The notes under the pieces: generated by a model
Told to the model about the DNA's origin: nothing
What the model saw: only the letters and a program-made list of their open reading frames with translations
The model's database searches: none
Made by a program: the position numbers and the translations under genes
Part shown: in pieces, positions 16,088 through 31,821 of the stretch
Layout of the letters: the number at the start of each line of letters is the position of its first letter
Position numbering within the stretch: position 1 is the stretch's first letter
Assembly: GCF_029360805.1 (NCBI RefSeq)
Contig: NZ_JARKNC010000010.1
Coordinates: 733,287-797,286 of the forward strand
DNA: 64,000 nucleotides
Direction of reading: 5' to 3'
From: Daejeonella sp. JGW-45
GTDB lineage: Bacteria; Bacteroidota; Bacteroidia; Sphingobacteriales; Sphingobacteriaceae

Positions 16088-17017
16088 ATGTTTGATTACG
16101 ATGCAGAAAGAGTACGGGCCGTCCTACTGGAGATTACCCGTGCTAATATCTCTCCCGACGCCGGCGATTGGTTCGAAGCTAATTTGAAGGCGAAGGCTCT
16201 GCCGGCGATAAACTCAACCTTTTCGGTCATGCCCAGGAAGACAGGTAAGGGCGTGATTACGGTTCAAGAGCCGGATTTTGGAACGATATCCCAAATTAAA
16301 CCAGGCTTATCTTTGCAGGGTTGGAGTGCCGACCGGCTTGCCCGTGTTTGCTTCCTGATCCATCTAGACCCATCAGATAAGGATACCTATCTTAAAACTA
16401 TTGAAAGCCTGTTTATGGCGGCAGAGATGTCAGAATTGACGGCTCTTTATTCATCGCTTCCTCTGCTGGCTTACCCTGAGGACTGGAAGATGAGATGCGC
16501 CGAAGGGATCAGAAGCAATATTGCAGATGTTCTGGAGGCGGTCATGTATCACAATCCTTATCCCGCAAAGTACCTGGATGATAAAGCGTGGAACCAATTG
16601 GTTATGAAAGCTGTGTTTACGGACAAAGACATTAACCAGATATATGGTATCGATGAGAGGGCGAATGCGGAACTGGCGCTTATTCTTTCTGATTATGCTC
16701 ATGAGCGCTGGGCTGCTGGTCGAAGCGTTAATCCTTTACTGTGGAGGCCAACATCGAAATTTATTGATGCCAGGATATTGAATGACCTTCGGAAAGTACT
16801 TTCGGAGGGGGCGATGGAAGAGAAGGTGGCGGCGGCGCTTGCCATTTACAATTCTGATTCGGATGAAGCCAGGGCTCTTCTGTCAGATTATAAGCAACTA
16901 GTATCGATGATAGAGAACAGGGATTTAGCCTGGGACCGGTTATATGGGGTACGAGAAACGGGATACGAGATGCGAGATACGAGAAGCGAGATACGGGATA
17001 CGAGAAGTGAGATATGA
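16088..17017 (+). CDS. eboA: EboA domain protein
   Basis: 309 residues, mainly alpha-helical, with no catalytic motif that I can recognise. Identification rests on position: it opens an eboA-eboB-eboC-eboD-eboE-eboF series on one strand, the order known for the ebo cluster. The conserved-looking block is LYSSLPLLAYPEDWKMRCAEGIRSNIADVLEAVMYHNPYPAKYLDD. The last 22 residues (from VRETGYE, with two RDTRSEI units) are the translation of a heptad DNA repeat, so the genuine family part ends at about residue 287. Confidence 0.85.
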   Translation: MFDYDAERVRAVLLEITRANISPDAGDWFEANLKAKALPAINSTFSVMPRKTGKGVITVQEPDFGTISQIKPGLSLQGWSADRLARVCFLIHLDPSDKDTYLKTIESLFMAAEMSELTALYSSLPLLAYPEDWKMRCAEGIRSNIADVLEAVMYHNPYPAKYLDDKAWNQLVMKAVFTDKDINQIYGIDERANAELALILSDYAHERWAAGRSVNPLLWRPTSKFIDARILNDLRKVLSEGAMEEKVAAALAIYNSDSDEARALLSDYKQLVSMIENRDLAWDRLYGVRETGYEMRDTRSEIRDTRSEI

Positions 17018-17094
17018 GATACGAGAAGTGAGATACGAGATATGAGATGGGAAATGAGCTGCTTTCTCGCTTCTCGTATCTCGCTTCTCACATC
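16951..17094. repeat. heptad array with inverted copy, between eboA and eboB
   Basis: Fifteen consecutive 7-bp units (ACGAGAA, ACGGGAT, ACGAGAT, GCGAGAT and variants) run from 16951 to 17055. An inverted copy follows at about 17063-17094, so the transcript could fold into a long hairpin. The eboA stop (17015-17017) lies inside the array. Because 7 bp times 3 equals 21 bp, the translated part has a 7-residue period (RDTRSEI). Confidence 0.92.
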
Positions 17095-17169
17095 TTTTCC
17101 CAGCAATAAATATTATTATTATACCCAATAGTATTATTAAAATAATACGCCATTTTAGATATTACGACT

Positions 17170-18156
17170 ATGTGCTGTACTCATTCATTCGAAGATAGGA
17201 GACCAATAGACGCTGTAAGCGAAAAACTGGATCTTGAGAACATAAAGGGAATGAAGTTCTTTGACCCTCATGTTCACATGACTTCCCGTACAACTGATGA
17301 TTATCAGGCTATGGCTGATGCAGGTATCGTTGCGTTAATAGAGCCGGCATTCTGGCTCGGGCAGCCCCGCACCGGTATAGATAGTTTCCGCGATTATTAC
17401 AGCAGCCTGATCGGATGGGAGAGGTTCCGGTCGTCTCAATTTGGTATCAGGCATTACTGCACCATCGGACTTAATTCGAGGGAGGCAAATAACGAGAAGC
17501 TGGCCGAAGAGGTTATGGATATGCTGCCCCTGTTTATTTATAAGGAAGGAGTGGTAGGAATCGGGGAAATAGGTTTTGATGACCAGACTGCTGCCGAGGA
17601 AAAATATTACCGCGCACAGCTTGAGCTTGCTAAGGAGTCGGGCCTTCCGGTGCAAGTACATACCCCACATCGTGACAAGAAAAGAGGCACTCTAAGAAGT
17701 ATGGATATCGCTTTGGAACATGGACTTGAGCCGGGAAAAGTTATAATTGATCATAATAATGAAGAAACCGTAAAGGACGTTCTGGACCGCGGATTCTGGG
17801 CCGCATTTACTATTTACCCCTTTACTAAAATGGGTAATGAGCGGATGGTCGAAGTAGCTAAACAATATGGGCCTGAGCATATTATGATTAACTCTGCGGC
17901 CGATTGGGGGATTAGTGACCCTCTGGCTGTTCCGAAGACTGCTGCCCTGATGAAGATCAAGGGTATCAGTGATGAGGCTATTAAGCTAATAACCTATTCA
18001 AACGCTATCGCTGCCTTTGCGCAAAGCGGTCAGATCGATGAGAAAGACTTTAATGTAGCCGTTTCTGTAGATCAAAGTCAGAAGTTTGAAGGCAATACTA
18101 TACTTCGCGGCGGTCAGCAGCCAAGAACCGATAAATCTTCTATTATTATAAGTTAG
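17170..18156 (+). CDS. eboB: EboB, TatD-like metal-dependent hydrolase
   Basis: 328 residues with a TIM-barrel amidohydrolase fold. The HxH motif is in FFDPHVHMTSRTTDDYQAM, a Glu metal ligand in GVVGIGEIGFDD, His ligands in PVQVHTPHRDKK and VIIDHNNEE, and a terminal Asp in MINSAADWGISD. This is the TatD-related protein of the ebo cluster. An alternative ATG at 17251 would start at MKFFDPHVHM; I keep 17170 because LENIKG before it resembles the family's lead-in. It follows the heptad array, and eboC begins 2 bp after its stop. Confidence 0.9.
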   Translation: MCCTHSFEDRRPIDAVSEKLDLENIKGMKFFDPHVHMTSRTTDDYQAMADAGIVALIEPAFWLGQPRTGIDSFRDYYSSLIGWERFRSSQFGIRHYCTIGLNSREANNEKLAEEVMDMLPLFIYKEGVVGIGEIGFDDQTAAEEKYYRAQLELAKESGLPVQVHTPHRDKKRGTLRSMDIALEHGLEPGKVIIDHNNEETVKDVLDRGFWAAFTIYPFTKMGNERMVEVAKQYGPEHIMINSAADWGISDPLAVPKTAALMKIKGISDEAIKLITYSNAIAAFAQSGQIDEKDFNVAVSVDQSQKFEGNTILRGGQQPRTDKSSIIIS

Positions 18157-18157
18157 T

Positions 18158-19039
18158 TTGGCGAGCATCAATACCTATCTGCGTTTAGTACGCCCGGCGA
18201 ATGTAGTAACATCTGTGGCGGATGTGTTGGCTGGTATCGCGATATCCGGATATTTCCTGGGCGGGAACGTGAATTACTTCTCCGTTTTGCTGCTGTGTAT
18301 TTCTACTATTTGTCTTTATGCGGGCGGGATAGTATTCAACGATGTTTTTGACGCTGAGCTCGATAGATTCGAGCGTCCGGAGCGGGCAATCCCAAGCGGG
18401 GCGATCCGTATTGGCCAGGCTGGTTTGTTTGGGACGGTGCTTCTCCTCATTGGTATTGGATCGGCCTTTGCTTTCGGTATTCTCTCGGGGATCATTGCAC
18501 TGGGTATTGCTATCGCTGCACTGATGTATAATAAATTCAGCAAACATTATTCCCTTCTCGGGCCGTTTAATATGGGTGTATGCCGGGGTTTGAATTTGTG
18601 GCTGGGGCTGAGCATTCTTTCATACGGTTTTAATCAGTGGCAGATCCTGGGGATGATTCCCCTGATGTATATCTTTTCGATCACAATGATAAGCCAGGGG
18701 GAAGTACATGGCGGGAATATCCGTAACCTGTACATCGGCGGCATATTATACCTTTTGGTGATATGTTTTATCTTAACAGTATCTAAAATACAGGACAATG
18801 TAGTGCTAACATTGATTTTTTTACTGCCTTTCGCCTTTATGATACTCAAGCCCTTATTTGAGGCTATCCAGGAACCAGTGGGAAGAAATATAGGTAAGGC
18901 TGTAAAAGCCGGCGTAATTTCTTTGATCCTGATGGATGCAGCCTGGGCGGCCGCGTTTGGATCGATATACGCAGCAGTATTTATTGCATGCCTTTTACCT
19001 GTGTCGTTATGGCTGGCAAAGCGTTTTGCCGTTACTTAA
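18158..19039 (+). CDS. eboC: EboC, UbiA-family prenyltransferase-like membrane protein
   Basis: 293 residues with about nine membrane helices. The first Asp-rich motif is clear: N61DxxD65xxxD69 followed by PERAIPSG. The second UbiA Asp-rich motif is not canonical; the equivalent loop appears to read SQGEVHGGNIRN. The start is TTG at 18158, one base after the eboB stop codon, so it is translationally tied to eboB. In the ebo cluster this is the prenyltransferase-like component, and it would act in the inner membrane on an undetermined acceptor. Confidence 0.9.
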   Translation: MASINTYLRLVRPANVVTSVADVLAGIAISGYFLGGNVNYFSVLLLCISTICLYAGGIVFNDVFDAELDRFERPERAIPSGAIRIGQAGLFGTVLLLIGIGSAFAFGILSGIIALGIAIAALMYNKFSKHYSLLGPFNMGVCRGLNLWLGLSILSYGFNQWQILGMIPLMYIFSITMISQGEVHGGNIRNLYIGGILYLLVICFILTVSKIQDNVVLTLIFLLPFAFMILKPLFEAIQEPVGRNIGKAVKAGVISLILMDAAWAAAFGSIYAAVFIACLLPVSLWLAKRFAVT

Positions 19040-19098
19040 TTTATAAATAATTTACAGGATCATCCGGTTTACGTGCCCGGCCCTGACCCGCTCTTATT

Positions 19099-20244
19099 AT
19101 GGAACATCTTCAGCAGTCTTTTAATATCAGGTTTGAATACAAAGTTTATTTTACGTCGGGGCTTTTCGACACTTCAAATAAACTTTTCAGTGATTTTTTA
19201 AATAGTGCCGCGGTTGCGGGAATACCTAAAAAGATCCTGTTCGTTGTTGATCAGGGTGCATTTGATGTTGCGGCCGACCTTAAGGAGAAGCTAAAAAAAT
19301 ATTTCGACACCTATAAGGAAGTTCAGCTGGTACAGGATATTATAACCGTTCCGGGTGGGGAAGTGGTTAAAAACGAAACAAAGTATTTCGATGAGATACT
19401 GGAAGCTGTAAATGACCATAAAATAGACAGGCATTCATATATCGCTGCTATAGGCGGCGGTTCGGTGCTTGATTTGGTCGGGTATGCAGCTGCGGTTTCA
19501 CACAGAGGTATAAAACATATTCGTATTCCTACTACAGTTTTATCGCAAAATGATTCCGGCGTAGGAGTCAAAAACGGTATCAATTACTTCGGAAAGAAGA
19601 ATTTCCTGGGAACTTTCGCGCCTCCCGTCGCGGTATTTAATGACGAGCTTTACCTGACAACGCTTAGCGACCGGGATTGGCGATCTGGAATTTCGGAAGC
19701 CGTGAAGGTGGCTCTTATAAAAGATCCCGCATTTTTCACCTGGCTTGAAGAAAACGCCGGTGCCCTGGTAAGCCGCGACCTGAAAACTATGAATTATCTG
19801 GTGCGCCGCTGTGCTGAACTTCACATGCAACATATTGCTGGCCTTGACCCGTTTGAAACGGGTTCTTCCCGTCCCCTCGATTTCGGTCACTGGAGCGCTC
19901 ATAAATTGGAGCAGCTTTCTGCGTTTGAAGTTTTGCATGGAGAGGCCGTCGCTATGGGTATGGCTCTGGATACAGTTTATTCGAATTTGTCGGGCCGGCT
20001 TTCTGACGGTGAAACCGAGAGAATTATCGGTCTGCTGCAAAAGTTTGGTTTTGAGTTAACCCATCCCCTGATGGAAGTTGAGGATCCGGAAAGTGCCATT
20101 CTGCGTGGTCTTGAGGAGTTTCGCGAGCACCTGGGTGGGCGACTAACGATCATGTTATTAAACAGGATAGGATCCGGAACGGAAGTGCATGAGATTGATA
20201 CCGATATTTTAAGGCTGTCAGGTATAAAACTAAAGACTTATTAA
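19099..20244 (+). CDS. eboD: EboD, 3-dehydroquinate-synthase-like sugar phosphate cyclase
   Basis: 381 residues. The NAD-binding stretch is AAIGGGSVLDLVGYAAA (Gly119-121). Predicted metal ligands are Glu200 (GISEAVKVALIKD), His264 (DFGHWSAHKLE) and His280 (LHGEAVAMG), with His268 as the catalytic partner. The substrate-site segment SQNDSGVGVKNGINYFGKKN resembles C7-cyclitol synthases (2-epi-5-epi-valiolone synthase type) more than housekeeping AroB (VDSSVGGKTGVN). Its product has not been deduced. The TAATG junction with eboE indicates translational coupling. Confidence 0.9.
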   Translation: MEHLQQSFNIRFEYKVYFTSGLFDTSNKLFSDFLNSAAVAGIPKKILFVVDQGAFDVAADLKEKLKKYFDTYKEVQLVQDIITVPGGEVVKNETKYFDEILEAVNDHKIDRHSYIAAIGGGSVLDLVGYAAAVSHRGIKHIRIPTTVLSQNDSGVGVKNGINYFGKKNFLGTFAPPVAVFNDELYLTTLSDRDWRSGISEAVKVALIKDPAFFTWLEENAGALVSRDLKTMNYLVRRCAELHMQHIAGLDPFETGSSRPLDFGHWSAHKLEQLSAFEVLHGEAVAMGMALDTVYSNLSGRLSDGETERIIGLLQKFGFELTHPLMEVEDPESAILRGLEEFREHLGGRLTIMLLNRIGSGTEVHEIDTDILRLSGIKLKTY

Positions 20245-21455
20245 TGGAACTGAGTGCGGGACATTTAACTTACTGTACTAACATTCATGCAGGCGAATCG
20301 TGGGATGCCCACTTCGAATCGCTTAAGAAAAACTTCCCGCTCATAAAGGCCCATGTGTCTAAGGATATGCCTATGGGGATAGGTTTGAGATTGTCGAACA
20401 TCGCCAGCATTGATCTTCAGGACAGTAGTAAGCTGCAAGAATTTAAGTTGTGGCTGCAAGATCATAGCGCCTACGTTTTTACAATGAACGGATTTCCCTA
20501 CGGGGATTTTCACCATGCGGTTGTTAAAGACAAGGTTCATGCGCCAGATTGGTGCACGACCGAACGCCTGGATTATACCCTGCGATTATTTGATACCTTA
20601 AGCAAGTTACTTCCTGAAGGATTAAGCGGAGGTATCTCTACTTCTCCTCTTACCTACCGGCATTGGCATCCCTCAAAGGAGCAGTGGGAAAAAGCCATGA
20701 TCGCGTCGACCCTGAATATTGTTTCTGTACTCCGGGAACTCATCCTGATAAAGCGGAACAAAAATATTTCGATGCATCTGGACATTGAACCCGAACCAGA
20801 CGGTATGCTGGAAACCGGCCGTGAATTCATTGACTGGTACCAGGGAGTATTTCTCCCGATGGCCGTTGAAGATTTGAAAGTAAGCTTGAATATATCTGCC
20901 GAAAACGTAATCGCAGCTGCCAAAGAGCACATCTGCCTGTGTTATGACGTTTGTCATTTTGCAATAGGATATGAACCGCACCGGCAGGTTATAGATGAAC
21001 TCGTTGAAAGTGGAATAGCTGTTGGAAAGATTCAGATAAGTGCGGCTTTGAAGGCCCGCCTGCCTGATGATGTTGAGAGCCGAAATCTTATTGCCACAGA
21101 ATTTTCCAGGTTTAATGAGCCCACATATCTGCATCAGGTGGTTGCAAAAAAAGAAGATAACAGCGTAATTCGCTACCGGGATCTGCCCGCAGCGCTTGAG
21201 GATATACAAAATCCTGAAGTCGCAGAATGGCGGGCGCACTTTCACGTTCCTGTTTTCGTTAATGAAATGGGACTGTTAAATTCAACCCAGTCTGATATTG
21301 TAGAAGTGTTGAACATACAGAAGAGTTCCGCTTTCACATCGCATCTTGAAGTCGAAACCTATACCTGGGAGGTACTGCCTGAATCCTTGAAAGCTTCGAT
21401 AGACCAGTCGATAAGCAGGGAATTAAATTGGGTTAGAGGGGTGTTGGGGGATTAG
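20244..21455 (+). CDS. eboE: EboE, xylose-isomerase-like TIM-barrel protein
   Basis: 403 residues. It opens with the family signature LTYCTNIHAGESWDAHFESLK. Metal-site candidates are MHLDIEPEPDG, CYDVCHFAIGY and RAHFHVPVF, consistent with a divalent-metal TIM-barrel isomerase/epimerase of the AP-endonuclease-2 superfamily. It is called the metabolite traffic protein EboE in annotated genomes. Its ATG overlaps the eboD stop by one base. The heptad array starts right after its stop. Confidence 0.9.
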   Translation: MELSAGHLTYCTNIHAGESWDAHFESLKKNFPLIKAHVSKDMPMGIGLRLSNIASIDLQDSSKLQEFKLWLQDHSAYVFTMNGFPYGDFHHAVVKDKVHAPDWCTTERLDYTLRLFDTLSKLLPEGLSGGISTSPLTYRHWHPSKEQWEKAMIASTLNIVSVLRELILIKRNKNISMHLDIEPEPDGMLETGREFIDWYQGVFLPMAVEDLKVSLNISAENVIAAAKEHICLCYDVCHFAIGYEPHRQVIDELVESGIAVGKIQISAALKARLPDDVESRNLIATEFSRFNEPTYLHQVVAKKEDNSVIRYRDLPAALEDIQNPEVAEWRAHFHVPVFVNEMGLLNSTQSDIVEVLNIQKSSAFTSHLEVETYTWEVLPESLKASIDQSISRELNWVRGVLGD

Positions 21456-21456
21456 G

Positions 21457-21596
21457 AACCAAGAACCAGGAACCAGGAACCAAGAATCAAGAACAAAGAA
21501 TCAAGAACAAAGACCAGGAACCAGGAAAAAAGCCGGCGGCAAGAAGCTGATAGCTGATAGCTGATAGCCCATAGCCCATAGCCCCCATAACCCATA
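21457..21596. repeat. two adjacent heptad arrays between eboE and eboF
   Basis: 21457-21532 consists of AACCAAG, AACCAGG, AATCAAG, AACAAAG and similar 7-bp units (one unit is 6 bp). After 13 bp, 21546-21596 carries GCTGATA three times, then GCCCATA-type units. Both share the 7-bp period of other arrays in the window but have unrelated consensus sequences. They fill the 150-bp gap between eboE and eboF. Confidence 0.92.
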
Positions 21597-21605
21597 TCTC
21601 AAACC

Positions 21606-22967
21606 ATGAAAAAGACTGTCGTAATAGATGTTGTAGGATTATCAACTTCGGTGATTGGAGAAAATACGCCTTTTCTCAAAGAATATATCTCCCGTAAACA
21701 CCTGGTTAATATCGAGCCAGTCCTGCCGGCTGTCACCACTTCTGCTCAATCCACATACATTACCGGTAAGTGGCCCTCGGAAACAGGGATAGTTGGAAAT
21801 GGATGGTATGATCACACGGATTCTGAGATAAAGTTCTGGAAGCAATCCAATAAGCTTGTAGGGGGTGAAAAGATATGGGAAAGGGCAAAAAAAGAAGATC
21901 CTTCCTTTACCTGTTCAAAGATGTTCTGGTGGTATAATATGTATTCATCTGCAGATTATGCTGTAACACCGCGTCCTAACTATCTTGCCGATGGAAGGAA
22001 GATGCCCGATTGCTATTCTCATCCTGCAGAATTAAGGGATATCTTGCAGGAGAAACTCGGTCAATTTCCACTGTTCCAGTTCTGGGGACCGGGTGCTAAT
22101 ATTAAATCTACTAAATGGATCGCGGATGCCTCAATGCTGACCGATGATCTGTATGATCCGACGTTAACCTTAATTTATCTTCCCCACCTCGACTATTGCC
22201 TTCAGAAATTTGGGCCCGACCTTTCGAAAGTGGGACAAGAGCTGAGTGAGGTGGATGAGGTGATCAGGCAGCTCGTCACGTTTTATGAAAAGAAGGGCGC
22301 TGAAATAATAATATTGTCTGAATATGGGATATCGCCGGTAAGCAGGCCTATTCATATAAACCGGATCCTGCGGAAAAATGATCTGCTCAACATCCGTGTT
22401 GAAAGAGGACTGGAACTTCTGGATGCGGGCGCATCGAAGGCCTTTGCAGTTGCGGATCATCAGATAGCGCATATTTATGTTAATGATGGTTCAACTTCAA
22501 GCCAGGTCAGGTCATTGTTGGAAGGTATCCCGGGTATCGAATTGATATTAGATAAAGAGCAGCAAAAGGCATATCATATCGATCACGAGCGCTCGGGTGA
22601 TTTCGTCATAATGGCGGACAAGGACAGCTGGTTTACCTATTATTTCTGGCTCGACGATGCTAAAGCACCTGATTACGCCCGCTGTGTGGATATTCATAAA
22701 AAGCCGGGCTATGATCCCGTCGAAATGTTTATGAGCTCCAAGCTTCGCGCAGGCTATAAATTACTGAGAAAAAAAGTGGGATTTCGTTATGTGATGGACG
22801 TAATACCACTCGATGCAGAATTAATAAGAGGCTCTCATGGACGGACAGGGGTTGAGTCTAAATACCAGCCGGTGTTGATATCCGACAAAAAAAATCATGG
22901 GCAAGCGCTCCCGGCTACGGAAGTTTATAAGCTGATTTGGGAGATATTAAGCCGCAATAAATTCTAG
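21606..22967 (+). CDS. eboF: EboF, alkaline phosphatase/nucleotide pyrophosphatase family protein
   Basis: 453 residues with the alkaline-phosphatase-superfamily metal core: N-terminal Asp in KKTVVIDVVG, a nucleophile Thr/Ser region AVTTSAQSTYITGKWP, LIYLPHLDYCLQKFG, LSEYGISPV and RGSHGRTGVES. It resembles type I phosphodiesterase/nucleotide pyrophosphatase enzymes. There is no signal peptide, so it is predicted to be cytoplasmic. It is the last ebo gene, separated from eboE only by the repeat arrays, and a new regulatory unit (sigma factor) begins 62 bp later. Confidence 0.88.
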   Translation: MKKTVVIDVVGLSTSVIGENTPFLKEYISRKHLVNIEPVLPAVTTSAQSTYITGKWPSETGIVGNGWYDHTDSEIKFWKQSNKLVGGEKIWERAKKEDPSFTCSKMFWWYNMYSSADYAVTPRPNYLADGRKMPDCYSHPAELRDILQEKLGQFPLFQFWGPGANIKSTKWIADASMLTDDLYDPTLTLIYLPHLDYCLQKFGPDLSKVGQELSEVDEVIRQLVTFYEKKGAEIIILSEYGISPVSRPIHINRILRKNDLLNIRVERGLELLDAGASKAFAVADHQIAHIYVNDGSTSSQVRSLLEGIPGIELILDKEQQKAYHIDHERSGDFVIMADKDSWFTYYFWLDDAKAPDYARCVDIHKKPGYDPVEMFMSSKLRAGYKLLRKKVGFRYVMDVIPLDAELIRGSHGRTGVESKYQPVLISDKKNHGQALPATEVYKLIWEILSRNKF

Positions 22968-23029: not shown

Positions 23030-23596
23030 GTGAAACAGCGATTTGAAAATCTTCCGGATATTGTAACAAGGCTTGCCATTTCAGGTAGTGAGCAGGCGTA
23101 CAGGGAATTGTTTGACCTCTTGTATATACCTGTGAAAGAGTTTGCTTTTTGTATCCTGCGTTCAAATGAAGAGGCTGAGGAAATATCTGAGGATGTATTG
23201 ATCTCCCTGTGGAATAACCGGAAGAAATTACCTGAAATAGAAAATGTTCATGTTTATGCGCTTGTAATTGCAAAAAATCTTTCACTGAATCTTTTAAAGA
23301 AAAATTCAAAAACTAAGACAAGCTCTATCGACGAAGTTGACATGAATTTTTTCTTCGACGGATCAAGCCCTGAACAGATCATCATTGATGAGGAACTGAA
23401 GAAGAGGCTTGAAAATGCGATACAATCCTTACCTCCCAAATGCCAGTTCGTTTTTAAGCTGGCCAAAGAAAATAATCTTAGTTATAAAGAGATAGGTCAG
23501 ATCTTGTCGATCTCGGCTAAAACTGTTGATGCCCATCTGGTAGCGGCTACACAAAAGTTGGCCAAAATCTTTAAGTCCGAGTTTCAAATTAAATAG
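23030..23596 (+). CDS. ECF RNA polymerase sigma factor
   Basis: 188 residues. Sigma region 2 spans about 25-85 (EAEEISEDVLISLWNNRKKLPEIENVHVYALVIAKN) and region 4 about 120-180 (ALQSLPPKCQFVFKL-type helix, LSYKEIGQILSISAKTVDAHLVAATQKL). The start is GTG at 23030. FecR and SusC/SusD follow on the same strand, so this is the trans-envelope-controlled sigma factor of the locus. It would be released when the STN domain of the receptor signals to FecR. Confidence 0.92.
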   Translation: MKQRFENLPDIVTRLAISGSEQAYRELFDLLYIPVKEFAFCILRSNEEAEEISEDVLISLWNNRKKLPEIENVHVYALVIAKNLSLNLLKKNSKTKTSSIDEVDMNFFFDGSSPEQIIIDEELKKRLENAIQSLPPKCQFVFKLAKENNLSYKEIGQILSISAKTVDAHLVAATQKLAKIFKSEFQIK

Positions 23597-23688
23597 CGTT
23601 GAAAATATATTTCAATGCAGGCTAGGGAATTCCTCTTTTTTTATTGTCCTTAAGTAAATATGGATCGGCAGAGTCTGAGACTGATATG

Positions 23689-24720
23689 GACGAACAACGC
23701 ATTGTTGAATTAATAACCCGTAAGATAGCAAAGGAAGCCACGGCCGAAGAGCTTGGTGAACTGTCATATCTTTTGACAAAATATCCTGATTCGGTTTATT
23801 ACGAAGCATTGCTTGAGCAGGTTTGGGAACTCGGTCAACCTCAGGCAGAACCCAATCTTGATGAAACCTTTGAGAAGCATAAGCTTAAGTATAAAACGGA
23901 TCTTAATTTCAAACGGGATATCGCCTTTTATAAACGACCCGCAGTACTTTTGACAGTTCTTGCCAGTACTTTAATTCTTATTGCGACTCAGTTCATCAAG
24001 AATGACATTCTCCGACCAAAGGAAGAGCGGGTTGAGATTATTGCTAAAAAGGGTATCCGGAAAGAATTTAAACTCCCTGATGGAACAATCGTAGTGCTGA
24101 ACAGCGGGAGTACAATATTGTACGATCCGGATATGACGAAACGCGAATACCGGGAAGTGGGTCTGATCGGTGAGGCTTATTTTAAGGTTGCTCATGATAA
24201 ATTACACCCTTTTATTGTCAAGGCCGGTAAGGTTGCAGTAAAGGTCTTAGGGACCGAATTTAATCTGAGAGCTTATCCGGATGAATTGGAATCAGAAACC
24301 ACGTTGATTAAAGGAGCTGTTGAGTTGACAGTTAATGACCAGCCAGATCAAAAATTTATTCTAAAGCCTTCGGAAAAAATTGTCCTTCTGGAAAAGGCAA
24401 AAAAAGAAGGAAGCGTAAAAGTCAGTTTTGTTGCGTCAATTGAGACTGTTTCTCCTGTCAGAGTTGGTGAGAACAAGTATATCGAAGAGATATCATGGAC
24501 AGAAAACAAGTTTGTCTTTCAAAACGAATCATTTGAAGAACTTATCCCAAAACTGGAACGCTGGTATAACGTGCGGATAGTATTGGAAGATCCCAGAATC
24601 AAATCTTACCGGTTTACCGGAGTTTTTATTAATGAGAATATAATACAGGCTTTACAAGCCATGCAATTAATCAAATCATTTAACTATAAACTCAATGAAA
24701 ATGAAATAAAGATCTACTAA
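23689..24720 (+). CDS. FecR-family anti-sigma factor
   Basis: 343 residues from the ATG at 23689 (MDEQRIVELITRK). A cytoplasmic sigma-binding N-terminus (ATAEELGELSYLLTKYPDS) is followed by one membrane helix (AVLLTVLASTLILIATQFI). The periplasmic FecR domain comes next (EFKLPDGTIVVLNSGSTILY, VREVGLIGEAYFKVAHD), then a DUF4974 C-terminal domain (FVFQNESFEELIPKLERWYNV). An upstream in-frame TTG at 23644 is possible but would add only a non-conserved tail. It links the receptor to the ECF sigma factor encoded upstream. Confidence 0.92.
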   Translation, partial: DEQRIVELITRKIAKEATAEELGELSYLLTKYPDSVYYEALLEQVWELGQPQAEPNLDETFEKHKLKYKTDLNFKRDIAFYKRPAVLLTVLASTLILIATQFIKNDILRPKEERVEIIAKKGIRKEFKLPDGTIVVLNSGSTILYDPDMTKREYREVGLIGEAYFKVAHDKLHPFIVKAGKVAVKVLGTEFNLRAYPDELESETTLIKGAVELTVNDQPDQKFILKPSEKIVLLEKAKKEGSVKVSFVASIETVSPVRVGENKYIEEISWTENKFVFQNESFEELIPKLERWYNVRIVLEDPRIKSYRFTGVFINENIIQALQAMQLIKSFNYKLNENEIKIY

Positions 24721-24728
24721 ATAAAAAA

Positions 24729-24754
24729 GCAGGAAATGCGCCAACATTCCCTGC
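24729..24754. terminator. hairpin between fecR and susC
   Basis: GCAGGAAATG (24729-24738) and CATTCCCTGC (24745-24754) pair with one mismatch around a 6-nt loop. There is no downstream T-run on the plus strand, so it is more likely an attenuator or processing site that lowers anti-sigma versus receptor coupling than a full terminator. It supports placing the susC start downstream, at 24817. Confidence 0.45.
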
Positions 24755-24816
24755 CTTCAAAATCCAATCGTAGTCCAACTACATATCAGATTATTAACCT
24801 TGTAATTCACAAAAGT

Positions 24817-27800
24817 ATGAAAAAACGAGAACTAAACAATAAAGTTCTGTTGCCTGATTTTACGACCCAAAAACTCTTATTAATGCTAAACTGGACAATA
24901 ATATTAACGTTCCTTCTTGTCCTGGAAGTATCAGCGAACAGTTATTCTCAAAATGTCAAAGTAGATCTGGATTTCCAAAACGTGAAATTTAAGAGAGCCT
25001 TTTCCATTTTAGAACAAAAGGGGAATATCAGATTATTATACAGCGAAGAAAGCCTGCCCGCCGACAGATCTATTACCCTTGCTGTGAAAAACACTCCCGT
25101 AATGGATGTCCTGGGGATGATATTGAAAGATACGGAACTCAAGTTCCGGGTATTAGAAAATGGCTTAGTAGTGATCTCCCCCCAGGACAATGAAATAAAG
25201 GACATTGTTGTAAAGGGTGTGGTTACAGACAGCAGGGGCGAAACATTGCCGGGAGTCAGTATCAAACTTAAAGGAACGTCGGTTGGGGCAACTACTGATG
25301 TAAACGGAAAGTATTCAATTAATGTGCCTGATAATGTCACCGTACTTGTGTTCACCTATATCGGTTTTAATACGCAGGAAGTTGCAATTAATGGTCGCAA
25401 TACACTAAATGTGCAGCTTGAAGTTTCCAATAGTTCATTGAACGAAGTTGTTGTAACGGCTTTAGGCATGTCTAAAGAAAAAAAGAGCCTCGGGTTTTCA
25501 GTTACTGAAGTAAAGGGCAGTGATCTGGCTGCTACTCAACAGTTAAATCCGGTGAATTCATTGATGGGAAAAGTTGCAGGCGTGCAAATTGATCAGAGCG
25601 CATCAGGACCTTTTGGAAATTCAAGAATTGTGATCCGTGGAAATTCAACTTTAAGCCAGAATAATCAACCAATATTCGTTATTGACGGAGTGATTGTTGA
25701 CAACGAGTCTGTTGCTGGTGGCCGCGATTTTGCAAATGACCTGTCGAATCTAAACAGCGAGAACTTTGAAAGTGTTTCGATATTGAAAGGGTCTTCTGCC
25801 GCAGCTTTATACGGCTCAAGAGCAATTAACGGAGTTGTTCTTATCACTACAAAGAAAGGTAGTAAAGCCAATGGAATTGGTGTTGATGTTTCGCAAAATT
25901 TTATGGTATATGATCCATACAAAGGTCCCGAATTTCAGAATGAATTTGGTGGCGGTAGCGTTGGTGCGTTCTTTACAGATGCCCGCGATAGAAACTATCA
26001 GTCAAATCAAATGTGGACTACAAAGGTGTTTCCGATAAATCCTATTACCAAGGAACCTTATATAGATCCGGCAATTAATCGTGAGAATGAAAACTGGGGA
26101 CCGAGATTTGCCAACCAGAAAGTACGTAATTATGATGGTACCTGGACCGAGTATAAAGCTGTGCCCAGTAACTACCTTGATGCTTTTCAAAATGGCACGT
26201 TAAGTACTACCAGTGTTGCTTTTTCCGGAGCAGGCGATAAAACCACCTATAGGTTCTCCGCGACGCATGACGATCAGGAAGGGATCACTGTGGCGAATGA
26301 GATGAAGAGAGATAATTTCAATTTAAGGATCACCCATAAGCTGGCTGATTGGTTGAGTACCGATGTAAGCGGAGGATATACAGCAAGTAATAATACCAAT
26401 CCTCAGAACCTCATATGGGCTGATTATGGTGATACATTTGCAGGAAATAACTGGGGAATTGCCTATATGTGGATGTTCCCGCGTAATTACGATACAAAAT
26501 ACTGGAATCAACCATCGAGATATACAAGTCAATTATTCGGAGGGTCACCAAGAGGAACAAACCCACTTGAGACCAACAAGGTGATGGCCCCGGAATTTTG
26601 GTTTAACATGAATAATACTGTTGCCACCATGGATAGCAGAAACTTCATGGGGCGATTCGCAGTAAATGCGAAGCTGACCAAGTGGGCTAATTTTACCGTT
26701 GAGGGTAATATGAATAATAATTATGACAAATATGAGAATAAGGCACTGGGTCAGTTTACCGACTTTAGCGGAGGTTCTTATACCTTAAATCAGTCAAAGA
26801 AAGAGAGCAATTTTGTAAAAGGAATACTTTCATTCAATAATATCAAAGTAGTAAAGAATGTAGGATTTACTGGTTTTGCCGGAGGTGAAATGTACAATTC
26901 AATTAGTTCATTTACACAGGGAATTACTTCAGGCGGGCTAATGGTTCCGGGTAATTATTTTATTACCAATTCAGTAAATTCGCCAATTGTCAGCGGCGGC
27001 GTAAACTATAATAAGAAGATCAATTCTGTTTATGCAAGTGCCGATTTTGATTATAAAAATCAGATCTATCTGGCTACAACATGGCGTGGTGACTGGTCGT
27101 CAGCTTTAACATATAAAGATGGAACCGGGAATAATTTTTACAATTATCCTTCAGCCAGTCTTTCATGGATCGCATCAGAAACATTCAAACTCCCGAGTGT
27201 GATAACCTTTGCAAAGTTGAGAACTAACATTGCGGCCCTGGGTAAAGACACAGACCCGTTTGTGATCAATCCCGGATACAGATTTGCGGGAAAGGTGATT
27301 GGACTACCGGGTGAACCTACCCGGGCGGGATTTAGTTCAAACAGCACTTTATCATCAAATTTAAAGCCTGAAAGAAAGATCTCCAAGGAAGTTGGGATGG
27401 AAATGCGTTTTCTAAAAAACCGCCTCGGTTTTGACATTACTTTGTATCAGGATAATACTTACGATCAGATCGTTGATATTTCGACACCTATTGAATCCGG
27501 AGTTTCCGGGGTTAAGATTAATGCCGGTAATATTCAGAACAAAGGTATTGAGATATCATTAGATGGAACCCCGGTGCAGACAGAAAACTTTCTTTGGAAT
27601 TCCCGTTTAACTTTCTCAAGGAATAAGAATCTGATCGTTTCTCTTGCGGAAGGAAGGTCAGATTACTCACTTGGCGGGGCAGCTTTTGACGCTAGTTCAT
27701 GGGCGGTTGTGGGAGGGTCTTATGGCACTATCCGGTCTACTACTCAGTCTTTAAAGTATGTCAATCCTGCGAATGCGGCCGATCCGAAAAACGGGATGAC

Positions 27801-28530
27801 TGTACTTGCCTGGAGGAATGATGCCCGTGCTGCTTTCCCTCAGAGAAGTAATAAATATCAGGATATCGGTGATATCAATGCTAAATTCAGAGGTGGTTTC
27901 TCCAATGATTTATCTTATAAGAACTGGTCACTGAATGTGTTGTTTGATGCAAAAGTTGGAGGCGATATGGCTATGTCCTCTATCAGGTCGGGGACTCATA
28001 CCGGGGTACTTCCTAATACATTGTTTGGTAGAGATGCTGAACACGGTGGAATTACATGGACCAGTAAATATGACGGAATCACCTATGATGACGGGATGAT
28101 TATTGACGGCGTATTTCCGATAGGACAAAAGGTTACCTTACCTAACGGTACTACTGCTGATGTTGGAGGTATGACCTTTAAAGAGGCTTATACAGCTGGA
28201 TTGGTTGAGCCAACACATGCTCCGCAGTTCTATTACCGTTATGCTTCTTCTTCTACAGGAGTGTCTGATTTCTGGATCAAAGAAAGTACCTGGGTTGCAC
28301 TTCGTCAGATAGCAATATCGTACAACCTTCCAAAAAGTATCGCTACCAAGCTGAAGGTTAATGGGATTTCTGTAAGTGTTATAGGCAGGGATCTGGGCTA
28401 TCTGTACAACTCTTTGCCTTATGATCTTAATCCTGCATCGTTAAACTCCAATTTGACGTCAGCAGTAGGTGAAGAAGGCTTCTTACCGATGATCCGCTCA
28501 ATTGGCGGTTCAGTAAAGATCCGTTTCTAG
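24817..28530 (+). CDS. SusC/RagA-family TonB-linked receptor with N-terminal STN domain
   Basis: 1,237 residues from the ATG at 24817 (MKKRELNNKVLLPDF). It has a long signal peptide ending near SANSYSQ and an STN (secretin/TonB N-terminal) domain (VDLDFQNVKFKRAFSILEQK ... FRVLENGLVVISP). A carboxypeptidase-regulatory-like domain follows (VKGVVTDSRGETLPGVSIKL), then a TonB-box-like NEVVVTALG, a plug (VIRGNSTLSQNNQPIFVIDG) and the barrel ending in GGSVKIRF. The STN domain marks it as a transducing receptor that signals to FecR. It is the outer-membrane importer of the locus and partners SusD 41 bp downstream. Confidence 0.94.
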   Translation: MKKRELNNKVLLPDFTTQKLLLMLNWTIILTFLLVLEVSANSYSQNVKVDLDFQNVKFKRAFSILEQKGNIRLLYSEESLPADRSITLAVKNTPVMDVLGMILKDTELKFRVLENGLVVISPQDNEIKDIVVKGVVTDSRGETLPGVSIKLKGTSVGATTDVNGKYSINVPDNVTVLVFTYIGFNTQEVAINGRNTLNVQLEVSNSSLNEVVVTALGMSKEKKSLGFSVTEVKGSDLAATQQLNPVNSLMGKVAGVQIDQSASGPFGNSRIVIRGNSTLSQNNQPIFVIDGVIVDNESVAGGRDFANDLSNLNSENFESVSILKGSSAAALYGSRAINGVVLITTKKGSKANGIGVDVSQNFMVYDPYKGPEFQNEFGGGSVGAFFTDARDRNYQSNQMWTTKVFPINPITKEPYIDPAINRENENWGPRFANQKVRNYDGTWTEYKAVPSNYLDAFQNGTLSTTSVAFSGAGDKTTYRFSATHDDQEGITVANEMKRDNFNLRITHKLADWLSTDVSGGYTASNNTNPQNLIWADYGDTFAGNNWGIAYMWMFPRNYDTKYWNQPSRYTSQLFGGSPRGTNPLETNKVMAPEFWFNMNNTVATMDSRNFMGRFAVNAKLTKWANFTVEGNMNNNYDKYENKALGQFTDFSGGSYTLNQSKKESNFVKGILSFNNIKVVKNVGFTGFAGGEMYNSISSFTQGITSGGLMVPGNYFITNSVNSPIVSGGVNYNKKINSVYASADFDYKNQIYLATTWRGDWSSALTYKDGTGNNFYNYPSASLSWIASETFKLPSVITFAKLRTNIAALGKDTDPFVINPGYRFAGKVIGLPGEPTRAGFSSNSTLSSNLKPERKISKEVGMEMRFLKNRLGFDITLYQDNTYDQIVDISTPIESGVSGVKINAGNIQNKGIEISLDGTPVQTENFLWNSRLTFSRNKNLIVSLAEGRSDYSLGGAAFDASSWAVVGGSYGTIRSTTQSLKYVNPANAADPKNGMTVLAWRNDARAAFPQRSNKYQDIGDINAKFRGGFSNDLSYKNWSLNVLFDAKVGGDMAMSSIRSGTHTGVLPNTLFGRDAEHGGITWTSKYDGITYDDGMIIDGVFPIGQKVTLPNGTTADVGGMTFKEAYTAGLVEPTHAPQFYYRYASSSTGVSDFWIKESTWVALRQIAISYNLPKSIATKLKVNGISVSVIGRDLGYLYNSLPYDLNPASLNSNLTSAVGEEGFLPMIRSIGGSVKIRF

Positions 28531-28571
28531 TAATCTTTATTGGTTATAATACATATTTAAAAAGAACAGAA

Positions 28572-30257
28572 ATGAAAAGGAATTTTTTATATATCATAAT
28601 AGCAGCGTTCACCAGCTTGTTTATTAGCTCTTGTACTAAAGATTTTGAGACGGTAAATGTTAATCCCAATGTTGTTACTGATGTTGATGTAAGGTTACTC
28701 TTTACATCATCACTGGTGCCAATGCAAACTTCCCGCGGAGGTGAATATTGGAATGAAGGTTTTACGCATTTTTTGTCGGCATGTCAATTAGTAACCGGCC
28801 AAAGTTATGCTGTGTCAACCACTGGCGTGAACAGTCGTTATAATCTTTTTTACGGTAGTGTGCTTCCTAATTTAGTGGAAATGCGAAGGATCATTGCACT
28901 TAAAGCCGATAAGGAGAAGTATGAGCAGATCAATGCTATTACCTATATTCCTCAAGTCATGATGGCTTTAAAGGTAAGCGATATGAATGGGTCTATGCCA
29001 TATACCGAAGCTAACAAAGGAAGGGACGAAGCTAAATACAGCCCTAAGTATGATAACCAGGAGGCTTTATATACGGTATGGCTGAAAGAATTGTCTGATG
29101 CGATCACTACTCTTCAAAAGAATTCGGGCAACCAGGTTTCATTTGGAAATAATGACGTCTTTTATAGAGGTGACGTTACAAAATGGATCAAACTTGCTAA
29201 TTCTCTGAAGTTAAGGATTGCCGCCCGGTATCAGAATCAGGATCCTGCAAAGACAACTCAAATATTCAAAGAGGTGATGGCAGATGCTGTGGGCCCGTTC
29301 AGCTCGACAGCTGATCAGTTGGTTCATGCAAATCCGACTTATTATCCTTTCGGAATTGATGGTTACAATATAGATATTTATAGCCGTCATTTTGCAGTTG
29401 GAACTGCTGTAGAGTTCCTGAAGTCGTCCGGCGATCCGCGTCTCGGGATTTATTATGACAAAAACTCTTTGACAGGAAACTTTAAAGATACGCTGGCAAA
29501 ATACAATAAGGTATTACCATCATGGATAAATACCAGTGATCCAAATATTATGTATCAGGGTGGGCCGGCTGATTTTCAGTCAAATCCGCCTGTAAGTTCC
29601 TTTTTCGTAAATCCATTTAATGGTGGTGGCGCCAACAGGTATCAGCTGATCTCAACTGTTAACCGTAAATTCTTTGCACCAACAGTGGATAGAGGAAGCG
29701 GTACAGTTATCGATGTGTTGTTTTCGTATGCAGAGGTTTCTTTGCAGATAGCAGAATTTATTCAAAAAGGTTACGGTGCCGGAGTTAATACCAGGGGGAC
29801 TGCAGCCGAATGGTACAATAAAGGAGTTCGTGCCTCGGTAAAGACTATGAATGAAATTGCTGTTGCTGCCGGTTCAACATCCTATGCAAATATCGATGCA
29901 ATGATTGATGCTCACCTGGCCAACGCAAAAGTAAAATTTGATGGGACAGCCAGCGACCTGGAGAAGATTTATATTCAATCACTATTGAATTTTTATCGTG
30001 ATCCTAACGAGGCGTTTACACTGGCACGCCGTACAGGTTATCCAAAGTTTAATTCAACTTTACTTGCTCGTGAAGTTATAAGCGATGTGTTGCCAAGAAG
30101 ATGGTGGACGCTGGACCCGGGACAGGTGAACAGCGCCAATTGGAATGCGGCCATGACAGAACAGGGCTTTACGCCAAACGATTTTACTGTTTCAAAACTG
30201 AATACTGAAAGGATCTGGTTTGATAAGAAATCTCCGGATTATGGTAAAGGGAATTGA
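28572..30257 (+). CDS. SusD/RagB-family surface lipoprotein
   Basis: 561 residues. It has a lipoprotein signal peptide (LYIIIAAFTSLFISSC) with the lipid-bearing Cys followed by TKDFETVNVNPN, typical of the SusD/RagB-like (SusD_2) branch. A helical TPR-like region and the C-terminal YKGKDPNEAF-like element (NFYRDPNEAFTLARRTGYP) fit the family. It caps the SusC barrel and captures substrate at the surface. A strong terminator follows, so sigma-fecR-susC-susD appears to be one transcription unit. Confidence 0.93.
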   Translation: MKRNFLYIIIAAFTSLFISSCTKDFETVNVNPNVVTDVDVRLLFTSSLVPMQTSRGGEYWNEGFTHFLSACQLVTGQSYAVSTTGVNSRYNLFYGSVLPNLVEMRRIIALKADKEKYEQINAITYIPQVMMALKVSDMNGSMPYTEANKGRDEAKYSPKYDNQEALYTVWLKELSDAITTLQKNSGNQVSFGNNDVFYRGDVTKWIKLANSLKLRIAARYQNQDPAKTTQIFKEVMADAVGPFSSTADQLVHANPTYYPFGIDGYNIDIYSRHFAVGTAVEFLKSSGDPRLGIYYDKNSLTGNFKDTLAKYNKVLPSWINTSDPNIMYQGGPADFQSNPPVSSFFVNPFNGGGANRYQLISTVNRKFFAPTVDRGSGTVIDVLFSYAEVSLQIAEFIQKGYGAGVNTRGTAAEWYNKGVRASVKTMNEIAVAAGSTSYANIDAMIDAHLANAKVKFDGTASDLEKIYIQSLLNFYRDPNEAFTLARRTGYPKFNSTLLAREVISDVLPRRWWTLDPGQVNSANWNAAMTEQGFTPNDFTVSKLNTERIWFDKKSPDYGKGN

Positions 30258-30286
30258 TGTATAAATCAACTCAATAAAATCTAACT

Positions 30287-30332
30287 AGTGGTTTGAAAGA
30301 TGGATTGTTTATTCATCTCTCAAACCACTTTT
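30287..30332 (+). terminator. intrinsic terminator after susD
   Basis: A 16-bp stem with one mismatch (AGTGGTTTGAAAGATG at 30287-30302; CATCTCTCAAACCACT at 30314-30329) is followed by TTTT. It separates the sigma/fecR/susCD operon from the aminotransferase gene. Confidence 0.8.
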
Positions 30333-30360
30333 CGCACTTACAAATTCTATTCTAAATACA

Positions 30361-31656
30361 ATGTCAGGACGTAAACAATTCTTACAACAGTTGGGCTTAA
30401 TGGCCGGAGCATTCTCCGCAAATAGTTTGTTCAATCAATTGCATGCTGAGGAGATATCTTTCGCTAATAATAAGATCAAGCATCTTTCACCGGTCCAACT
30501 GGCTGCAGATGAAGACTACTGGAGTGTTATTCAGCAGGCGTATACTGTAAGCCCTAATTTGATTAATTTAAATAATGGCGGCGTTAGTCCTTCACCACGG
30601 GTTGTTCAGGAAGCAGTTGAGCGTTATAATAAATTAACCAACGAAGGCCCTTCTTACTTTATGTGGGAGATACTGGATCAGGGGAGAGAACCCTTACGTG
30701 AAAAACTAGCGGAACTTGCCGGATGCAATAAAGAAGAAGTTGTGATTAATCGTAATGCTACTGAATCTTTGAATACGGTGATCCTGGGTCTTGATCTTAA
30801 AGCCGGAGATGAAGTTATTGGTTGTAAACTCGATTATCCGAATCACATGAATGCATGGAAGCAAAGAGCCATGCGGGATGGGATCATTTATAAGCAGCTT
30901 AGCTTTAACTTCCCAATCGAGAATGATGAGGAAATTGTTGCAGCATTTGAAAATGCGATCACTCCAAAGACTAAAATAATCCACGTAACTCATGTGATTA
31001 ATTGGGTGGGGCAGATCCTGCCGGTAAGAAAGATCAGTGATATGGCACATCGTCATGGTTTAGAGGTAGTATGTGATGGTGCACATTCTTTCGCATTACT
31101 TGATTTTAAAATTCCTGATCTGGGCTGTGATTATTTCGCTACTTCGCTTCATAAGTTCCTGAGTGCTCCTATCGGCAGCGGTATGATGTGGATCAGGCAG
31201 GATAAGATTTCTAAGATCTGGCCATTACTGGCAAATGGGGATCCTCGTGGCACAAATATTAGAAAATTTGAGACACTGGGTACCCGCAGTTTTCCTATCG
31301 AACAGGGAATCGGCGAAGCGATTAATTTCCAATTGGCCATAGGGAATAAGCGAAAAGAGGAACGTGTAAGATATCTTAAAAACTATTGGGCAGAACGGGT
31401 GAGTAATATTCCCAAAGTTAAGATCAAGACATCTCTCAAATCGGCATACTCGTGCGCTATTTGTGGCGTGAGCATCGATGGAATAACTCCAAGAGAGCTG
31501 GAGCGGATTCTTTTTAACAAGTATAAGATCCATACTGTGCCTATTGAATATGAGAATGTTAGCTGTGTGCGCGTAACTCCTCATGTATATACACGTTTGC
31601 CTGAGCTCGATAAATTTGTCAGGGCGATCACAGAAATATCCGTCAAGGGTAAATAA
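30361..31656 (+). CDS. class V aminotransferase, isopenicillin-N-epimerase-like, probably exported
   Basis: 431 residues. The N-terminus GRKQFLQQLGLMAGAFSANSL resembles a Tat signal with an Arg-Lys pair in place of Arg-Arg. The PLP domain has LNNGGVSPSP, VINRNATESLNTV, VCDGAHSFALLDF and the PLP-lysine segment TSLHKFLSAPIGSGM. This is the fold-type I class V group that includes isopenicillin N epimerase and cysteine-desulfurase-like racemases. Placed after a SusCD uptake system and before a secreted amidohydrolase, it may racemise or deaminate an imported amino-acid-type substrate in the periplasm; the substrate is inference. Confidence 0.88.
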   Translation: MSGRKQFLQQLGLMAGAFSANSLFNQLHAEEISFANNKIKHLSPVQLAADEDYWSVIQQAYTVSPNLINLNNGGVSPSPRVVQEAVERYNKLTNEGPSYFMWEILDQGREPLREKLAELAGCNKEEVVINRNATESLNTVILGLDLKAGDEVIGCKLDYPNHMNAWKQRAMRDGIIYKQLSFNFPIENDEEIVAAFENAITPKTKIIHVTHVINWVGQILPVRKISDMAHRHGLEVVCDGAHSFALLDFKIPDLGCDYFATSLHKFLSAPIGSGMMWIRQDKISKIWPLLANGDPRGTNIRKFETLGTRSFPIEQGIGEAINFQLAIGNKRKEERVRYLKNYWAERVSNIPKVKIKTSLKSAYSCAICGVSIDGITPRELERILFNKYKIHTVPIEYENVSCVRVTPHVYTRLPELDKFVRAITEISVKGK

Positions 31657-31687
31657 AGAGAACTCTCAACGTATTGAATTGGAATGC

Positions 31688-31708
31688 GGGGCAAGTTCGC
31701 TTTGCCCC
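31688..31708. terminator. candidate hairpin after the aminotransferase gene
   Basis: GGGGCAA and TTGCCCC form a 7-bp GC-rich stem around a 7-nt loop (31688-31708), 32 bp after the stop. There is no clear T-run, so it may only weaken read-through into the amidohydrolase. Confidence 0.45.
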
Positions 31709-31821
31709 TATTACATTGAAAAAATTACAGACCCAATCTGTCTTTTTTCAATTATTTTGATAACATTTAGACCTGATTATATTAAGTCTAATTGATATTT
31801 AACATTCTTTAAATCAATACA

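Follow-up and report, generated by a model that had tools for sequence, protein, structure and literature searches.

A 64,000-nucleotide stretch of Daejeonella sp. JGW-45 (contig NZ_JARKNC010000010.1; hereafter the window) carries the six genes eboA–F as consecutive plus-strand open reading frames, in order, at 16088–22967. We give an even chance to the reading that this ebo cluster encodes a cytoplasmic and inner-membrane pathway for a prenylated cyclitol, that is, an ether lipid whose head is a carbocyclic polyol. EboD would close a ketose phosphate, possibly sedoheptulose 7-phosphate (S7P), into a cyclitol, and EboC would move an isoprenoid from a prenyl diphosphate to one of the cyclitol's hydroxyl groups, by a reaction like that of digeranylgeranylglyceryl-phosphate (DGGGP) synthase. 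EboE, a TIM barrel similar to xylose isomerase and IolI, and EboB, a TatD-like hydrolase, would modify the head group. EboF, which has an alkaline-phosphatase fold without the canonical metal site, would perform a non-standard step. EboA may be a helical scaffold, and a TMEM220-family protein may assist in the membrane, perhaps by positioning or moving the lipid. In clusters that carry inositol-3-phosphate synthase (MIPS), this enzyme would build the ring in EboD's stead. Any export of other metabolites would follow from the presence of the lipid rather than from pump activity of the cluster. A lipid-linked cyclitol carrier was suggested in the original prediction from this DNA, and the idea is already in print (PMC5133447, PMC6282210). 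The idea gains support from the exchange between EboD and MIPS; the label of EboF as a phosphodiesterase is doubtful.

The strongest argument for a cyclitol intermediate is this exchange of the ring-closing enzyme. In three annotated Streptomyces MIPS-type clusters that were fetched, the EboD slot is taken by inositol-phosphate synthase. The Streptomyces plasmid cluster runs inositol-3-phosphate synthase, SCO3242-family UbiA, sugar-phosphate isomerase, EboA, TatD, EboE and EboF, without EboD. A tblastn search with Streptomyces EboE gave 48 plasmid records with an EboE match (the window EboE also gives 48), and these were sorted by match positions, with EboD and MIPS matches taken from the best 60 of 121 and the best 40 of 115 records, respectively. 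EboD was found in at least 15 of the 48 and MIPS within about 5 kb in at least 29. Four had neither nearby: NBC_01562, NBC_01340 and NBC_01244, for which 9 kb to either side was covered, and a Streptomyces fungicidicus record with a partial EboE match at the record start. The 29 MIPS records comprised 28 from actinobacteria (25 Streptomyces, two Embleya and one Nonomuraea) plus one from Gemmatirosa, and EboD was not seen in the five of these loci that were fetched (L041, L042, L125, L132 and L133). Haloarchaeal plasmid loci, which were found via UbiA, contained UbiA, TatD, two TIM barrels and EboF, with MIPS in three of four and no MIPS within 8 kb in the fourth.

Both MIPS domains, PF07994 and PF01658, were found in the MIPS proteins of Streptomyces (L042) and of Natronococcus (L126). 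The Streptomyces protein matches Archaeoglobus Ino1 with 230 bits, and its weaker matches include a five-membered-cyclitol-phosphate synthase, so that other ring products are possible. Its identification as the mycothiol Ino1 was rejected (43.6 bits versus a cut-off of 638). In the window, the slot holds EboD, and the cluster has no inositol-3-phosphate synthase and is not of the MIPS type. EboD and MIPS are two unrelated ring-closing sugar-phosphate enzymes in one slot, which favours a cyclitol building block. The word "inositol" has no occurrence in the main text of PMC5133447, and no relevant paper linking ebo or SCO3242 with inositol-phosphate synthase was found in a non-exhaustive search of the open-licence literature.

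EboD (19099..20244, plus strand) has the DHQ_synthase fold and is predicted from its sequence to be a sugar phosphate cyclase other than AroB. It scores 221–222 bits against the aroB model TIGR01357, below the cut-off of 305, and 558 bits against NF004852, above the cut-off of 333; the name of the latter model, "3-dehydroquinate synthase", is likely a misnaming for EboD. A bona fide AroB is encoded elsewhere in the genome (G000:C9:483852-484823, 349 bits, cut-off 305). Accordingly, EboD was rejected as the organism's AroB, being below the TIGR01357 cut-off and not the sole copy. The order sample comprised 201 genomes, of which 66 had EboE and were counted as ebo-positive. AroB was above cut-off in all 201, and a second AroB-family match was present in 66 of 66 ebo-positive versus 6 of 135 ebo-negative genomes; this second match was read from two lists, and its position beside eboE was checked in fetched neighbourhoods.

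A tree of 29 proteins placed all 26 EboD rows in one clade with support 99/97, separate from an outgroup of only three rows, two dehydroquinate synthases (DHQS) and one S. clavuligerus S7P cyclase. The His-motif reads LDFGHWxAH in EboD, LN(L/F)GHTxGH in DHQS and VDFGHTFSP in the S. clavuligerus enzyme. Compared with the signature of S7P cyclases of the 2-epi-5-epi-valiolone synthase (EEVS) type, which have DFGH and a Pro at the second His position, EboD shares the Asp, keeps the His and has a Trp. The Lys of the E-I-K or Q-I-K stretch of DHQS is His in EboD. The Asn and Lys that EboD replaces are, we assume, the DHQS contacts of the carboxylate of 3-deoxy-D-arabino-heptulosonate 7-phosphate (DAHP). 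The second AroB-family match beside a true AroB, the tree and the motifs all bear out the earlier claim that EboD is distinct from AroB, and the phylogeny against AroB and S7P cyclase sets EboD apart within the limits of three outgroup rows.

EboC (18158..19039, plus strand, TTG start inferred) is a UbiA-family membrane prenyltransferase that scores 380 bits against NF035940 (cut-off 250). Its nearest solved structure is DGGGP synthase (6m31, E 8.7e-25), an enzyme that forms an ether on a polyol phosphate; other solved relatives are chlorophyll a synthase (4e-11) and UbiA (4od4, 1.7e-5). The first Asp motif, NDxxDxxxD, is present, with N61, D62, D65 and D69 in at least 95% of 80 rows. EboE (20244..21455, plus strand) scores 479 bits against NF035939 (cut-off 250) and has no relative in the PDB by sequence at E≤0.01. 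Its AlphaFold model (pLDDT 94.6) matches xylose isomerases, IolI and related TIM barrels, with 64 fold matches at E≤0.001 and TM-scores of 0.36–0.65 among the best 50 of the 64. EboB (17170..18156, plus strand; TatD PF01026, 63 bits) is a TatD-like TIM-barrel hydrolase, predicted to be metal-dependent. Its residues H34, H36, E133, H164, H195 and D245 are each conserved in at least 95% of 79 aligned rows, and we take these six positions to be the TatD metal ligands, predicted to be intact in EboB.

EboA (16088..17017, plus strand) scores 175 bits against the EboA_domain model NF035938 (cut-off 50) and 222 bits against the narrower EboA_family model NF035937, below its cut-off of 320, and can be aligned with 31 other EboA proteins. 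The AlphaFold model of residues 1–285 (pLDDT 96.1) is all-helical and solenoid-like. Its 842 fold matches in the PDB at E≤10 include none at E≤0.001, and many of these weak matches are HEAT/armadillo-type solenoids. A role in protein assembly was suggested for EboA in PMC6282210, and the helical model agrees with it.

EboF (21606..22967, plus strand; PF01663, 207 bits) belongs to the alkaline-phosphatase superfamily, but the seven-ligand bimetal site of nucleotide pyrophosphatase/phosphodiesterase (NPP) is not present in it. EboF and EboB were assigned by family, position and shared motifs, with no NCBIfam model for either among the matches. When EboF was compared with Xanthomonas NPP (2gsn/2gso) and phosphonoacetate hydrolase, IDGL was VVGL, VDEAGH was LDYxLQ and SDHG was SEYG, while GSHG was kept in a stretch whose alignment HMMER scored as insignificant. 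With the seven canonical NPP ligands taken to be those that we assume, the alignment gives replacement of Asp by Val10, His by Gln200, Asp by Glu239 and His by Tyr240, and retention of Thr44, Asp196 and His411. In an alignment of 81 EboF rows, which covers haloarchaeal clusters as well as those of the EboD and MIPS types, the His position is occupied by Tyr in 80 of the 80 rows with letters, and the position before it by Glu in 79. Such near-invariant replacements suggest, at the level of sequence, a new function rather than decay. Since the canonical metal ligands are replaced, the label "phosphodiesterase", which the original prediction had adopted, is doubtful. The terms "active site", "ligand" and "motif" are absent from the main text of PMC5133447.

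A gene of the TMEM220 family (PF15071; 15598..15975, plus strand; 90.2 bits, cut-off 27) encodes a predicted small integral membrane protein and ends 112 bp upstream of eboA in the window. Of the 20 neighbourhoods fetched from the family, 14 have TMEM220 upstream of eboA. Across the order sample, 59 of 66 ebo-positive versus 23 of 135 ebo-negative genomes carry it (Fisher p 7e-24, which is overstated because related genomes are not independent), and in 51 of the 66 it lies within 8 kb upstream of EboE. These results indicate that the ebo cluster has a linked seventh gene.

The linkage was also followed across phyla. This set came from an EboE alignment scan with at least 583 confirmed matches, of which the best 80 loci, ranked by an EboD-type Azospirillum EboE, were used, so that the sample leans to that kind. 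TMEM220 flanks ebo genes in 12 of the 80 loci, ten by Pfam above cut-off and two (L101 and L065) by our own profile only. Eight proteobacterial loci have it on the opposite strand, upstream of eboD, and two Flavobacteriia loci have it after eboF. It was not seen in most of the 80 loci, nor in either cyanobacterial locus. The tally was made from 28 matches, of which 12 were counted besides the window itself and 15 were dropped: a 525-residue antisense frame over eboD in L066 (17 bits, lifted by iteration only), 13 weaker matches overlying eboD or eboE, and a match 4.5 kb from eboF in L121. TMEM220 has no occurrence in the main text of PMC5133447, and no joint paper on TMEM220 and ebo was among the matches listed in the literature search described above.

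For a prenylated cyclitol count the EboD/MIPS swap, the EboD clade, the second AroB-family match, the likeness of EboC to DGGGP synthase, the folds matched by EboE and the TMEM220 linkage, and several points weigh against it. The second Asp-rich motif is not found in EboC, where only E182 is conserved at the place of DFEDMEGD in 6m31. The three non-EboD rows of the EboD tree are all long-branched. Near-identity (EboE at least 93%) among 19 of the 28 actinobacterial MIPS records means that fewer MIPS cases are independent, and the 80-locus sample is biased against MIPS-type clusters. MIPS could serve a neighbouring pathway, and it retains the phosphate. Sugar phosphate cyclases release it (PMC5133447), therefore the heads made by the two types of cluster may differ. 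In vitro, EboC homologues farnesylated quinoline acids when 14 aromatic acceptors were offered (PMC9235831). In addition, Nostoc mutants showed no lipid-conjugated monomer (PMC6282210).

A wider proposal, which we hold only tentatively and think rather unlikely as a whole, is that Ebo represents one pathway logic for prenyl-ether cyclitol lipids in many bacterial phyla and haloarchaea. EboD and MIPS would supply different heads to a common EboC, EboB, EboE and EboF, TMEM220 would be the seventh part, and EboF would be an alkaline-phosphatase fold turned to another use through a new catalytic site. With the cyclase swap, what had been a loose guess becomes a testable prediction of one lipid class with two ring heads, and an EboD-type Bacteroidota strain and a MIPS-type Streptomyces make a tractable comparison. 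The ebo genes are spread over many phyla and are also found in algal plastids and symbionts, and, if the proposal is true, human TMEM220 is a relative of a protein that handles a prenyl-ether cyclitol lipid. The database names phosphodiesterase for EboF and dehydroquinate synthase for EboD are not to be trusted. Compared with those parts of the ebo literature that were consulted, the cyclase swap, the TMEM220 linkage, the EboF ligand changes and the closeness of EboC to DGGGP synthase without that enzyme's second Asp motif may be new.

A role of the window cluster in metabolite export, as the original prediction had proposed, is possible by analogy with Nostoc. In N. punctiforme, mutants deleted for any one of eboA, B, C, E and F retain the scytonemin monomer in the cytoplasm, and ebo mutants are sensitive to UVA, not necessarily through loss of the sunscreen (PMC6282210); this is a result for one organism and one cargo. 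It underlies the explanation that the Ebo proteins are a small-molecule translocation module; an aromatic precursor would cross the inner membrane through it, as the scytonemin monomer is inferred to do. The linkage of a TMEM220 membrane protein in many genomes would also fit, as would a ScyE-family gene (NF033206, 253 bits) directly upstream of the MIPS-type cluster of Streptomyces NBC_00663 (L132:2963-4162), a neighbourhood that echoes the scyE–ebo pairing of scytonemin makers. However, we regard this explanation as unlikely. Family model searches found no transporter among the window ebo products; five of the six belong to enzyme families, EboA belongs to none, and none is transporter-like. 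The window genome has no ScyE-family protein above cut-off, and a scytonemin-like cargo was rejected on this ground. Only 11 of the 201 order genomes reach the ScyE cut-off, and seven of the eight listed reach it only when stretches in one frame are added together. The authors of PMC6282210 themselves propose a lipid carrier.

Somewhat more doubtful still is the explanation that EboC prenylates an aromatic (quinoline-type) acceptor, that EboD feeds an aromatic precursor and that the product is a meroterpenoid. The closest solved relative of EboC is the ether-forming DGGGP synthase, EboD is without the Lys and Asn of DHQS, and inositol-phosphate synthase fills the EboD slot in the three annotated Streptomyces clusters. 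EboC homologues of Maribacter, Zobellia and Algoriphagus do farnesylate 8-hydroxyquinoline-2-carboxylate in a heterologous setting, but aromatic acceptors alone were offered and the R145A variant showed no drop in activity (PMC9235831). That EboD is a second dehydroquinate synthase supporting the shikimate pathway, as the database names and its score above the NF004852 cut-off would have it, is highly improbable given the TIGR01357 score below cut-off, the true AroB in all order genomes and the different active-site motifs.

The presence of the cluster varies among related genomes. EboE was found in 4 of 8 same-genus genomes, with the own genome counted, and in 24 of 296 genomes of the phylum sample. 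Because EboE occurs in only part of the order and genus genomes, the ebo cluster is an optional trait. Where it is present, its arrangement is stable within the GTDB family: eboA–E stand in order in all 20 fetched neighbourhoods, and eboF too in 19. With profiles built here, 65 of the 80 cross-phylum loci showed three or more of the genes eboA, B, C, E and F. Among these 65 multi-gene loci eboD was present in 62, and MIPS was found in none of this set. The commonest gene order was ABCDEF (16 loci). One Acetobacteraceae locus (L060) has eboE, C, A, B and F, with no eboD found in 9.7 kb upstream. EboE homologues with no neighbouring ebo genes detected in the stretch examined were seen at L129:8989-10167, L074, L097 and L122, the first of which adjoins a type II polyketide cluster. 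In Aureibacter (L134:2046-5106), Mycetohabitans (L039:6054-9072) and Gloeothece (L165:9888-13169), a protein of about 590–660 residues followed by a ferritin-like protein stands beside the ebo genes, and PF12902 was found in both of the loci examined for it, L134 and L165.

Imperfect heptanucleotide repeat tracts lie in the window at 16936–17095 (the eboA–eboB gap) and 21446–21600 (the eboE–eboF gap). The first has inverted-repeat arms, covers the last ~20 eboA codons and lengthens the EboA C-terminus by about 20 residues. Its 19-base unit has three matches in the genome with at most one mismatch, all at this site. Downstream, at 23030–33093, are an ECF sigma factor, FecR, a SusC/SusD pair, a class V aminotransferase and an amidohydrolase. 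The SusC/SusD genes, together with the nearest named relatives of EboD, point to a Bacteroidota. The ECF/FecR/SusC–SusD genes were rejected as a core ebo part: ECF and FecR homologues follow ebo in two of the three further neighbourhoods of the genus and not in any of the 17 others, of which one (L149) has an ECF match upstream at 33% identity.

The window cluster was compared with the four systems closest to it. The haloarchaeal cluster shares TatD and EboF, with EYG in four of four loci, and its UbiA is EboC-like (197 bits to NF035940, cut-off 250, as scored in L126); in contrast to the window, no EboA was found in it, and one TIM barrel of L126 is weakly EboE-like (28 bits versus 250). The MIPS-type cluster of Streptomyces, Embleya, Nonomuraea and Gemmatirosa (SCO3242-family) shares the UbiA, TatD, EboE and EboF families. 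EboA is present in its three annotated Streptomyces loci and was not detected in L133 and L125. It differs from the window by inositol-3-phosphate synthase in place of EboD and by an extra xylose-isomerase-like protein. The scytonemin-associated cluster of N. punctiforme has the same Ebo families, but its eboD is placed apart from the main cluster, and scytonemin genes go with it (PMC6282210), whereas the window genome has no ScyE-family protein above cut-off. With the ABCDEF-type operon of Bacteroidetes, Cyanobacteria, Leptospira and eustigmatophyte plastids (PMC5133447), the window shares the six families, the order and the strand, and it differs by a TMEM220-family gene directly upstream and by having no scytonemin context. 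The open reading frames, the Pfam and NCBIfam models and the neighbourhoods of relatives confirm the six same-strand genes, their families and their order, and homology search keeps them inside the ebo families, with the EboA_domain model and the EboC and EboE equivalog models above cut-off. Two amendments are needed: the TMEM220-family gene belongs with the cluster, and the 3' end of eboA is a repeat tract. With its six genes adjacent, in order and on one strand, the window cluster is an ordinary complete copy of the ABCDEF-type ebo operon, a kind already described for Bacteroidetes (PMC5133447).

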